From a virus, in IMG/VR virus record IMGVR_UViG_3300031839_001269, positions 1-42,760 of that record: a DNA stretch of 42,760 nucleotides, one strand, 5' to 3'. The notes under the pieces are model-generated. The model was not told the DNA's origin. It did no database searches and saw only the letters and a program-made list of their open reading frames with translations. The stretch's first letter is position 1, and each line of letters begins with the position of its first letter. The position numbers and the translations under genes are program-made. Shown here piece by piece: positions 1-42,760 of the stretch.

Positions 1-15
1 CGGTCGAATCAAAAC
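1..15. repeat. 15-bp terminal overlap (identical to 42746-42760)
   Basis: Bases 1-15 (CGGTCGAATCAAAAC) are repeated exactly at 42746-42760. The stop codon of the 69-codon gene (9-11) lies inside this repeat, and its downstream context continues sensibly into the terminase region when the ends are joined. This supports a circular or circularly closed genome. It could be an assembly overlap or cohesive-end sequence written twice. It is far too short for a packaging direct terminal repeat. Confidence 0.85.
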
Positions 16-218
16 GGCGAGGGGCGGCCCCCTCCGCACAGTACCTTTTTATTTTTCGAGGCCGCCTCGCTAGCCGCTCCGCCTCGTGCTGCCTGCGACT
101 GGCAGACCGCTAGCCGCTGGCCGCTGTCGCGATACTCGGAGCGCATCGTCGGGTCCGCCATGCAGCGGTTGATGAACTGGCCGTCGGTCTCGTTCTCGTT
201 CGGTGTTGGCAGTGGCAT
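9..218 (-). CDS. Small conserved phage protein (Cys-containing N-terminal motif), 69 aa
   Basis: The N-terminus begins MPLPTPNENE and continues with F-I-x-R-C-M ... E-Y-x-D ... Q-R-x-A-V-C-x-S-Q. I recognise this as a motif of small phage proteins and of the N-termini of some prohead-associated proteins, usually near head genes. Its biochemical role is not known to me. The ATG at 218 follows an AAGGGGTAA-type ribosome site that overlaps the stop of the preceding gene (223-225). The usual family member ends just after C-x-S-Q-W. Here the Trp is replaced and about 29 residues of Ala/Gly/Lys-rich sequence follow, encoded partly by two GCTAGCCGC repeats. The frame ends inside the terminal overlap. 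On the circle it is 80 nt upstream of the terminase small subunit gene. Confidence 0.7.
   Translation of the reverse strand: MPLPTPNENETDGQFINRCMADPTMRSEYRDSGQRLAVCQSQAARGGAASEAASKNKKVLCGGGRPSPF
69..118. repeat. Two GCTAGCCGC(T) repeat copies inside the 69-codon gene
   Basis: GCTAGCCGCT occurs at 69-78 and 109-118. These are outlying members of the cluster at 1128-1413, in the opposite orientation. They lie inside the coding sequence and generate its Ala-rich tail. Related sequence occurs upstream of the terminase large subunit's downstream neighbour (GCTAGCCGTT near 39847) and, degenerate, just upstream of the small subunit start (GCGGCTAGTG near 42676). Confidence 0.75.
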
Positions 219-39859: not shown

Positions 39860-41842
39860 TTATGCGCGCGGCTCTGTAAAGTAAAGTTTCTCGGTCTCGA
39901 CGTAATCCCAGAACCGAGGCCAGTCGATCGTTTCGAGCTCGAAATGCTGGATGCAGATCGAGTACGCCATGATCTCGACCGCTGCGTGCCCGTACCCGAG
40001 CAGATCCCAGAGCTCCTGTCGGGCGTTGCCTGGTCTGTACCAGAAATACGTCACGTTACCGCGCCCGTCATCTTTTTCGCGCCGGGTCTCGACGGTCAGT
40101 TCCTTTAGCGCTGCGTCGGTCAGATCGACAGGCGCATTGAAATGGTAAGGGCTCTGCTCGCCCGAGTCCTCGGTCCAGTCCCGGCGCAGCACGGTGGCCA
40201 ATCGGTCCTTGTAGTGGTCGACGAGGATCCTGTACCCGATCGTCCCCGATTGCGTTTTGAACTCGGCGAACTCCTGAATCCGCTGATTCTTTGCAGCCCG
40301 GTCCCGGCCGAGGATCGGGTACACGCCGGCGGCGTAGTCCGCGCAGAACGTGGTCACGGTGTCGTTCGCGTAACCGGCATCGACCAGCGTGATCGCGATC
40401 CGGTACTGCTTGCCATCGTCGGCCGTATAGACCGCCTCCTCGATCAGTTCGCGCAGACGCCCCCAGGCCGAGGAGCTGATCTCGCTGCAGTCGCTATCCT
40501 CAAACCGCCAATAGTCGACCACGTAGCAGCGCAGGTCGCGGGTCCAGCCCATGACAGCGACGGCGAGGTTCGATTTCTGAACGTCGACCTGACAGGTCAG
40601 GAACAGGATCCGCGAGCCGGAATACTGCGCGGCGTACTGGTTCGGGATCTGGCCGCAGCGGTAAACCGGCCGGCGATGCGCCGACACGCTGGTGAACCGG
40701 ACTTTCGAGCCCATGACCTCGAACGGCTCGGCCAGAATGTTGTTGTAGAAAACCTGATATTTGCCGATGTCCCGGACCTTTCGCTCAACCGGGTCGAATC
40801 CGCGCAGGTAGGCGCTGACGCACTTGTACCACGGCTGCATGCCGATCGGCGAGTACATGGCCGGCAGATGGTAGGACCGGATCCCAGGCTCTGCAGGGCG
40901 CGCCGTCGGCATCCAGTGCGCGCCGTGGTCCTCGCTGAATAGCCGTTCCTTGTCGTGCTCGTAGTGTTCATGCCCGCATTTCTGGCAGCAGTAGCGGACG
41001 GACTCAAGGATCAGCGAGTCGCCCTCGGTCTCCCATCGGAACCCGCCGACGATGCCGCTCTCCTTGTCCACGGTCTCCCATCGCAGGTTCTGCGGATACC
41101 CGCACGACTTGCAAAGGACCATGTATTTGCGCTGATCGCCTCGGCGGTATTGCGCCTCGATTTTGCTGGCGGGTAACAGCAGGGGCGTCGAGCCCCGGAA
41201 AATTTTCCGCCGCTCCCAATAGGCCGAGCAGCGGTCGTCGCTCAATGCGTCCGGGTCGCCGTCCTTGCCGACCACGGCCGGCCAGGCATCGATCTCGTCT
41301 TTCAGCAGGACCGCGATCGAATAGCTCCGCATCTTGTCCGCGCTCCTCGCGCCGAACGGGACGAGGTACGCGCCTTTCGCGAACTGCAGATGATTGGCAG
41401 TCTTGCCGGTTTTCCGCGTGTTGCCCTCGTCGCTCGATCGGATCAGGTCGGACATCCCGGACTGATTGAACATCGGGATCAGGTTGTTCTCGATCCGCGC
41501 TTTCGCGAGCTCGCGGTCGGCCGTCATAAACATCATCGGCAGGGTCCCGACGTGTCCGGCGAAATACAGGATCCCCGATTCGAGCGCAGTCGTGTACGTG
41601 ATCTGCACGCCCTTTTTCAGATTGACTTCGCGGACCGGGCTGTCGATGTCAAAGCAGTCGACGATCTCGCGCATGAACGGGTTCACGTCGTAGCGGAGAT
41701 AACCGGGGATCGAGGTCACGCTCTCCGGCAGATAGCGGTGCTCCTCGTTGTAGGCGGTCGGCGTGACGTGGACGACCTCGTCGGTCAGCCCCTCGATCTC
41801 GGCGAGGATCCAGTCGGCGCCGATGTCCTGCAGGTTAGGCAT
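39860..41842 (-). CDS. Terminase large subunit (lambda gpA family), 660 aa
   Basis: ATPase: Walker A-like V-N-L-K-K-G-V-Q-I-T-Y-T-T near residues 73-85, Walker B L-L-K-D-E-I-D-A-W near 178-186. Two Cys pairs, C-K-S-C and C-Q-K-C, near 245 and 285 are extra zinc-binding features. The nuclease domain: Q-V-D-V-Q-K-S-N-L near 418 (Asp), T-L-V-D-A-G-Y near 484 and F-W-Y-R-P-G-N. This type cuts at cos and translocates DNA into proheads with the small subunit. The upstream small-subunit gene overlaps by 8 bp. Confidence 0.93.
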   Translation of the reverse strand: MPNLQDIGADWILAEIEGLTDEVVHVTPTAYNEEHRYLPESVTSIPGYLRYDVNPFMREIVDCFDIDSPVREVNLKKGVQITYTTALESGILYFAGHVGTLPMMFMTADRELAKARIENNLIPMFNQSGMSDLIRSSDEGNTRKTGKTANHLQFAKGAYLVPFGARSADKMRSYSIAVLLKDEIDAWPAVVGKDGDPDALSDDRCSAYWERRKIFRGSTPLLLPASKIEAQYRRGDQRKYMVLCKSCGYPQNLRWETVDKESGIVGGFRWETEGDSLILESVRYCCQKCGHEHYEHDKERLFSEDHGAHWMPTARPAEPGIRSYHLPAMYSPIGMQPWYKCVSAYLRGFDPVERKVRDIGKYQVFYNNILAEPFEVMGSKVRFTSVSAHRRPVYRCGQIPNQYAAQYSGSRILFLTCQVDVQKSNLAVAVMGWTRDLRCYVVDYWRFEDSDCSEISSSAWGRLRELIEEAVYTADDGKQYRIAITLVDAGYANDTVTTFCADYAAGVYPILGRDRAAKNQRIQEFAEFKTQSGTIGYRILVDHYKDRLATVLRRDWTEDSGEQSPYHFNAPVDLTDAALKELTVETRREKDDGRGNVTYFWYRPGNARQELWDLLGYGHAAVEIMAYSICIQHFELETIDWPRFWDYVETEKLYFTEPRA

Positions 41843-42674
41843 TTTTCAGGGTCCTTGCGATCTTGGCTTTCATCGGACGCAGGAACGACGTGATCTGCTC
41901 GGCGACGAATTTCTCGATGTCCTCCATGTCGCGGCCGGATCCGTGCATCGCCGTCGCTCGCCTGGCGATCGTTTTCGACCCGTCGGTCAGCAGTTTGACA
42001 TGCGCCGATTCGATCGGGTCGAGGATCCCATGCTTGACCAGTTTACGGCTGACGAGCTCGCCTTTCGTCTCCGCGTTTTTCAGTCGTTTCTCGTTGATGT
42101 CCTCGATCGACTTGGTCGCTTTCAACCAGTCAAGGAACCGGATGTCGGTCCCGAATTTCTCGACCAGCTCGCGCAGCGTCATGTCGGCGAATGCCTGGAT
42201 GTCCTCGGGGACGGCAAAAATCTGATCGTCCTGGGGGATCGGGGCGCCGCGCTTTTTGGTCTCTCGCCGGGCCGCCCATCCTCGCGGCTTGCTCGGCGCT
42301 GGCGTCGTGGCCACGGGTTCAGGATCCGGGGGCGGCTGGTTCAGGACCCCCGCCGCGTCGATCAGCTGGAACAGCGCTTTCGCTCGCTTGTCCCCGATGT
42401 TCAGCGGTTTGCGTAGGGCGTTCGCGGTCGGCCGCTTGTGGTCCCGCAGGATCTCGACCGCCTCCTCGTACAGCGGATCGATGCCTTGCAGTTCCGGCTC
42501 GCGTGTTGCCCGCTCGCGCCTTTCAATGTACGCGATAACGTCCGGATGATTGGCGTCGACGCGCTTCCCGGTGCAGCAGTGTTTAAGCGGGCCGGCGCAT
42601 GCCTTCGTTACGCTTGACGGGGCGACCCCGGCTCGGCGCGCCAGTTCGACGCGACTGATCAGATTTTTAGCCAT
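41835..42674 (-). CDS. Terminase small subunit with FtsK-gamma-like winged helix, 279 aa
   Basis: ATG at 42674 (an upstream frame has no ribosome site). Residues 4-30 form an HTH (L-I-S-R-V-E-L-A-R-R-A-G-V-A-P-S-S-V-T-K) like Nu1-type DNA binders. Residues 66-112 (D-P-L-Y-E-E-A-V-E-I-L, then L-N-I-G-D-K-R-A-K-A-L-F-Q-L-I-D-A-A-G-V) closely follow the FtsK gamma domain, which has D-P-L-Y-x-x-A-V-x-x-V and L-x-I-G-Y-N-R-A-A-x-L-x-x-x-M-E-x-x-G. A Pro linker then joins to a helical C-terminal part that should contact the large subunit. It would recognise the packaging start site. Confidence 0.84.
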   Translation of the reverse strand: MAKNLISRVELARRAGVAPSSVTKACAGPLKHCCTGKRVDANHPDVIAYIERRERATREPELQGIDPLYEEAVEILRDHKRPTANALRKPLNIGDKRAKALFQLIDAAGVLNQPPPDPEPVATTPAPSKPRGWAARRETKKRGAPIPQDDQIFAVPEDIQAFADMTLRELVEKFGTDIRFLDWLKATKSIEDINEKRLKNAETKGELVSRKLVKHGILDPIESAHVKLLTDGSKTIARRATAMHGSGRDMEDIEKFVAEQITSFLRPMKAKIARTLKNA

Positions 42675-42699
42675 GCGGCTAGTGTAGCGGCTTCGCGCT

Positions 42700-42741
42700 C
42701 GCAGGCAAAGCGCAGGCAAAGATTCAAGTTTGTGCGAGGGG
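42700..42741. repeat. cos-like region: two CGCAGGCAAAG tandem repeats and a GCGAGGGG copy
   Basis: CGCAGGCAAAG occurs back to back at 42700-42710 and 42711-42721. GCGAGGGG follows at 42734-42741 and recurs at 17-24 across the join. The region lies just upstream of the terminase small subunit gene, where cosB/cosN sits in lambda-like phages. No other function is obvious for the about 85 noncoding bases. Terminal overlap at 42746-42760. Confidence 0.6.
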
Positions 42742-42760
42742 TGCGCGGTCGAATCAAAAC

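Follow-up and report, generated by a model that had tools for sequence, protein, structure and literature searches.

The recognition of cos or pac DNA by small terminases is still treated as an open problem (PMC9611059). In lambda, the cohesive end is 12 nt long and the critical R3 site lies at bp 50–65 (PMC9026076). In 2021, an FtsK_gamma domain was reported fused to the small terminase (TerS) of Sam46 and Sam112, Bacillus phages of Samaravirus, and its authors already proposed KOPS/SRS-like packaging sites (PMC8190038). The gamma domain of these proteins is N-terminal and is reported to keep its DNA-binding residues, the core is of the Terminase_2 type, and packaging follows the headful (pac) mode (PMC8190038). 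A text search of one library of papers returned no further report of gamma fused to a small terminase. In Escherichia coli FtsK, KOPS is recognized through N1296, R1300 and E1303 (PMC2533119), and the R1300A/E1303A/E1306A protein is the “blind” FtsK mutant (PMC2680272). XerD is contacted and activated by the FtsK peptide RQFRIGYNR, with a single gamma surface binding both KOPS and XerD (PMC5052618).

The window analysed here is a viral stretch of 42,760 nucleotides whose TerS shares with Sam46/Sam112 the fusion of an FtsK_gamma domain to a phage small terminase. Unlike those proteins, it has an extra N-terminal winged helix before gamma, another core, diversified reading residues and a cos mode of packaging. 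Gamma-bearing TerS proteins were already known from Sam46/Sam112; what is new is a large family of cos phages, a diversified gamma domain and a testable cosB code.

The terS gene and its domains

The terS gene (41835..42674, minus strand) encodes a TerS of 279 amino acids, with no other gene between it and the left cohesive end. It lies directly upstream of terL (39860..41842, minus strand), which codes for a gpA-type large terminase (PF05876, 1.7e-43; PF20454, 4.8e-36). PHROG 13700 covers the whole length of TerS (1.1e-93). In PHROGs this entry is labelled “moron, host takeover: FtsK/SpoIIIE-like protein”, which is misleading, as the gene context marks the protein as a small terminase. The match to the TerS entry phrog_57 is weak, and a Terminase_2 match is absent in all 37 family members (E 0.1). 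The Pfam matches of the window protein at E <0.1 consist of FtsK_gamma and two weak ones, one of them to an HTH, with no RecA-type motor domain among them. Comparison with lambda Nu1 gave no clear sequence match (hhalign probability 0.5, E 0.12).

The protein begins with a MerR/Xis-like winged helix (42504..42674, minus strand), with the recognition helix at about residues 19–26 (APSSVTKA). This is followed by the FtsK-gamma-like domain (residues 66–113; 42336..42479, minus strand), which has three helices and has apparently lost its wing. The C-terminal helical domain (residues ~158–279; 41838..42203, minus strand) is the conserved core of the family. It is also found in relatives without gamma and is presumed to be the oligomerisation and TerL-binding part. 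The AlphaFold model of TerS has a mean pLDDT of 76 and a pTM of 0.32, meaning that it defines the individual domains better than their mutual arrangement. In this model, the N-terminal domain has strands at residues 5–7 and 38–40 and helices at 8–15, 19–26 and 44–57, while the gamma helices span residues 69–77, 84–91 and 95–108.

A distinct C-terminal variant (IDTFNSAHLRLLKDGAKSIAAGVISKH) occurs in loci L099, L121, L119, L127 and L129, with and without gamma and behind differing N-terminal heads, which suggests module swapping within terS. The only relative found among bacterial genome contigs (L131) resides on a Nitrospinota MAG contig, JAUXIQ010000002.1. Since this contig starts just upstream of terS, it is apparently of phage origin and was binned into the MAG.

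The gamma domain and its contact positions

The initial annotation had noted a resemblance of residues 66–112 to FtsK gamma and had named the Pfam profile as the check. The resemblance reflects true homology, extending over residues 66–113, which is weak in the window protein and unambiguous in the family. The profile PF09397 matches these residues with an E-value of 2e-5, its 24.6 bits falling short of the curated threshold (30.6 bits), and phmmer matches the gamma domain of Pseudomonas aeruginosa FtsK at 3.5e-5. Across the relatives, PF09397 matches 35 of 37 TerS proteins (best 3.7e-16), and the TerS family profile in turn matches E. coli FtsK gamma at 6.9e-15. A Foldseek search with the AlphaFold model gave ten best matches that are all FtsK gamma. 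Superposition on the KOPS-bound structure 2ve9 has a Foldseek probability of 1.00 and an rmsd of 1.0 Å over 44 columns; a second structure comparison (VIA) gave Z 7.7 and an rmsd of 2.7 over 53 residues. At the family level, it is beyond doubt that this region belongs to the FtsK gamma domain (PF09397) family. The domain is missing in 14 of the 57 TerS proteins scored, with about seven changes of label on the C-terminal tree, at least two of which are forced by supported branches.

The likeness to FtsK gamma (PF09397; 2ve9, 2j5p, 5dcf) is one of both sequence and fold in the three-helix winged-helix core. Unlike FtsK, TerS is without a motor domain, the window protein is missing the wing, and the residues that read KOPS and contact XerD are changed. 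At the positions of N1296, R1300, E1303 and E1306, the window TerS has K, A, Q and D, and the N/R/E triad is kept whole in none of the 43 distinct gamma-bearing TerS proteins. The scaffold of the domain is nearly fixed in the same 43 proteins (D1266 and R1297 in 43, A1298 in 41, Y1269 in 40 and G1294 in 39). Positions 1296, 1300, 1303 and 1306 belong to the more variable part of the alignment, with an entropy of 2.4–3.0 bits. In place of the RQFRIGYNR peptide, the window TerS has KPLNIGDKR, in which both N1296 and R1292 are changed. The sensing of XerCD-related DNA that had been suggested for this protein is thereby left unsupported in the window. With both the KOPS triad and the XerD peptide changed, the domain is an FtsK gamma homologue in which the surface for reading KOPS and XerD has given way to another. 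The diversified contact positions would fit either new specificities or relaxed constraint.

FtsK gamma recurs in other kinds of phage protein, including RdgC-like proteins of Vibrio, Pseudomonas and Pararheinheimera phages and Gordonia phage genes annotated as “FtsK-like” or RusA. Of seven such gamma domains sampled (RdgC fusions, FtsK-like proteins and others), five have N/R/(E or D)/E at the contact positions. Among the TerS proteins, gp4 of the Shewanella phage SppYZU01 (KY622015) is a full-length homologue with gamma, the same cos region and 55% identity, annotated as hypothetical. Its gamma domain is less divergent (VGWERASKLV), and its terS promoter holds a KOPS-like G-rich box.

The cos region and its candidate readers

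The left cohesive end (cosN) lies at 42746..42760 and reads GTTTTGATTCGACCG on the terS strand, and the right end (1..15) carries the same 15 bases. From the left end, the order is cosN at bp 1–15, a conserved CCTCGCACAA element, two iterons, a -10 box and the terS ATG. Independent contigs of different phages start exactly at GTTTTGATTC..., about 86–93 bp before terS in the terS orientation, and of 36 contigs containing the cos pattern, 26 terminate there. In four other complete contigs, one 15-mer stands at both ends (GTTTTGATTCGACCG, GTTTTGATTCCTCCG, GTTTTGATTCCGTCG and GTTTTGATTCCGACG, respectively), and its middle is particular to each genome. An assembly artefact was ruled out as the source of the overlap, since the ends of different phages fall on one homologous base while carrying their own 15-mers. 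As judged from these contig ends, the terminal overlap of 15 bp comes from the filling-in of a 15-nt 5′ cohesive end at a fixed site; the 5′ polarity of the overhang is suggested by the logic of end filling and by the lambda-type terminase.

Next to cosN is the conserved element CCCCTCGCACAA (42730..42741, minus strand), marked by the conservation of CTCGC. This is present in 28 of 37 relatives with gamma and in 11 of 13 without, as well as in the gamma-less Vibrio phage VP16T. Beside the right end is a variable, G+C-rich, hairpin-like segment (16..37), followed by the conserved element AAAAATAAAAAGGTACTG (39..56, minus strand) in a cosQ-like position. In the relatives too, the AAAAATAAAAAGGTACTG element is strongly conserved some 20 bp inside the right end, and the gamma-less Vibrio phages 97.13 and 1.201.B share it.

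Attention had been drawn to two KOPS-like GCGAGGGG words that flank the terminal overlap. Both are indeed present, at 42734–42741 and 17–24, but no special status attaches to them. The window holds seven GCGAGGGG words against 4.05 expected, and 11 of 100 shuffles reach seven; nor does the window show an excess of the KOPS consensus GGGNAGGG (4 against 6 expected). The word at 42734–42741 is the CCCCTCGC of the conserved cos element, and the one at 17–24 lies inside the hairpin-like stretch, where the sequence differs in every spanned relative. GCGAGGGG was ruled out as the gamma target, as one copy belongs to a cos element common to gamma-less relatives and the other to a non-conserved hairpin. 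With neither word assignable to gamma and the contact residues lost, the reading of KOPS in the window is not borne out. Of the proposal that gamma was borrowed to pick or orient the packaging site, the homology to FtsK gamma and its place in a site-selecting protein stand, whereas the KOPS reading does not.

A tandem CGCAGGCAAAG at 42700–42721 was confirmed as two iterons one helical turn apart. These are R1 (42711..42721, minus strand; bp 40–50 from the left end) and R2 (42700..42710, minus strand; bp 51–61), each CTTTGCCTGCG, with R2 overlapping the terS -35. Among 50 loci, direct repeats of 7-mers at 10–12 bp spacing give 269 matches against 219 ± 5.7 in shuffles. The excess is confined to spacings of 10 bp (z 7.6) and 11 bp (z 5.2) and is seen both in the presence and in the absence of gamma. 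The repeat unit varies among phages, yet within one phage the copies resemble each other, as with the paired TTTGCC of the window, the paired TTTCACC of L093 and the paired TTTACC of L089.

The iteron type tracks the N-terminal recognition helix. Among 47 relatives, a PS[ST] helix goes with TTGC iterons in 12 of 12 cases and other helices go with the TTAAC class in 34 of 35, although the Fisher value of 2.5e-10 overstates independence, since two independent comparisons fall on well-supported branches. Both of these are concordant, and nine independent pairs are counted on the best tree. The association persists in the gamma-less subset. L090 and L099 form a sister pair on the C-terminal tree (support 93) and differ in helix and iteron type at once. 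Four new full loci also fit the rule; all are of the TTAAC class and none has a PS[ST] helix, so that they test half of it. The recognition-helix and iteron sites are about 100 bp apart, and joint inheritance is possible.

The nearest folds of the N-terminal domain, taken from the AlphaFold model, are those of BldC (6ama, Z 5.8) and Pukovnik Xis (4j2n, Z 5.5), both MerR-like winged helices. BldC binds direct repeats one turn apart in a head-to-tail arrangement (PMC5859096), a helical-turn spacing shared by the iterons. BldC and Pukovnik Xis differ from TerS in being transcription or recombination factors, not terminases, with an identity of 21–29%. The likeness to the lambda gpNu1–gpA system comprises the gpA-type TerL, the position of terS just inside the left cohesive end and the N-terminal winged helix. 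It extends to cosB, with repeated candidate sites at about bp 40–61 and R2 at 51–61 compared with 50–65 for lambda R3. The locus departs from lambda in its cohesive end of 15 rather than 12 nt, its direct iterons one turn apart and its inserted gamma domain. Taken together, the iteron spacing, the tracking by the helix, the BldC fold and the position of lambda R3 make the tandem CGCAGGCAAAG the best candidate for cosB, and a more meaningful element than GCGAGGGG. The same evidence points to the N-terminal head rather than to gamma as the likeliest reader of these iterons.

The terS -10 box, TACACT (42681..42686, minus strand), lies 6 nt before the ATG, a distance of 6–7 nt being found in 39 of 48 loci, and the terS transcript is thus probably leaderless. 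Inverted repeats with differing arms flank this -10 within the last 42 nt before the ATG in L080, L084, L085, L087, L090, L093, L096 and L104, e.g., CAGGGAGT...ACTCCCTG in L104 and GGTGGA...TCCACC in L085. Their pooled z is 3.8 in gamma-positive loci against 0.8 in gamma-negative ones, values uncorrected for kinship, and none is found in the window. These repeats, mostly of gamma-positive loci, are a possible operator.

The role of gamma in packaging

The favoured reading, held at a probability of about 0.6, is that of a two-headed, lambda-like cos TerS, in which the N-terminal head would read the iterons and gamma would supply an auxiliary, re-specified DNA contact. The N-terminal heads would bind R1 and R2 cooperatively, head to tail, and so anchor TerL. 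The anchored TerL would nick cosN, with packaging starting from the left end. TerS may also repress its own promoter, as R2 is at the same time the terS -35. Since the iteron type follows the N-terminal helix whether or not gamma is present, gamma is most likely an auxiliary reader; since its KOPS-reading amino acids are changed, it is probably a second, re-tuned reader of DNA or only a grip. With the scaffold kept and the base-reading positions diversified, it most likely adds a specific or stabilising contact beside the iterons. In better-preserved relatives, this contact may perhaps fall on a G-rich box in the promoter spacer.

That box is also the starting point for a rather unlikely proposal, the original suggestion carried over to the family, in which gamma still reads a KOPS-like, G-rich polar sequence and orients packaging, its target being the box in the terS promoter spacer rather than GCGAGGGG. 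A purine- or G-rich motif follows R2 in the -35/-10 spacer of 17 of 25 loci with a strong gamma, 2 of 10 with a weak gamma and 1 of 13 without (Fisher 1.4e-4, strong gamma against the rest), although the motif was defined after seeing the data and the loci are related. An exact GGGNAGGG lies between cosB and the ATG in 4 of 37 gamma-positive loci (L069, L070 and L072, of one lineage, and L106) and in none of the 13 gamma-negative ones, with about 0.2 expected for all 50 loci. The new gamma-positive locus L175 likewise has GGGGAGGG, with an exact GGGNAGGG, between cosB and terS. On the new loci as a whole, however, the box is present in one of two with gamma and in neither of two without. It is absent from the terS promoter of the window, and the loss of the KOPS triad in 43 of 43 proteins speaks against a conserved KOPS reader. 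Somewhat easier to entertain, though still tentative, is a combination in which the MerR/Xis-like head reads the tandem iterons and gamma, re-specified phage by phage, reads the adjacent G-rich, KOPS-flavoured box.

A vestigial or structural gamma, which would do no more than hold the N-terminal reader and the oligomerisation core apart as a compact module and touch DNA non-specifically if at all, would account for the lost wing and replaced contact residues of the window and for the many relatives that have the same cosN and iteron architecture and no gamma. It is judged improbable, as the core residues of gamma are strictly kept in 43 diverse proteins, beyond the needs of a spacer. Sensing or hijacking of host chromosome segregation, through Xer/dif or host KOPS, could draw on the shared KOPS- and XerD-binding surface of FtsK gamma (PMC5052618). 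The altered XerD-contacting peptide of the window argues against it, and a local role at cos is simpler for a terminase, which makes such a host function very improbable indeed. The window itself combines a worn gamma with the lack of a G-rich box, which favours the auxiliary, re-specified contact over both the structural role and the KOPS-flavoured reader. With triad, wing and box all missing, this particular gamma would probably serve auxiliary or low-specificity binding, not KOPS reading.

For the annotation of phage genomes, the label of PHROG 13700 is corrected to small terminase. If the tentative two-part reading of iterons and G-rich box is true, each phage would have a private packaging and autoregulation code, evolved from a reader of chromosome polarity. 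The family offers natural variants by the dozen, in which the cohesive end is mapped and the recognition helix of the N-terminal head appears to specify the iteron by a code. Its second head derives from the best-understood bacterial reader of polar DNA and carries many natural substitutions at known contact positions. These natural variants make the specificity of TerS directly testable.
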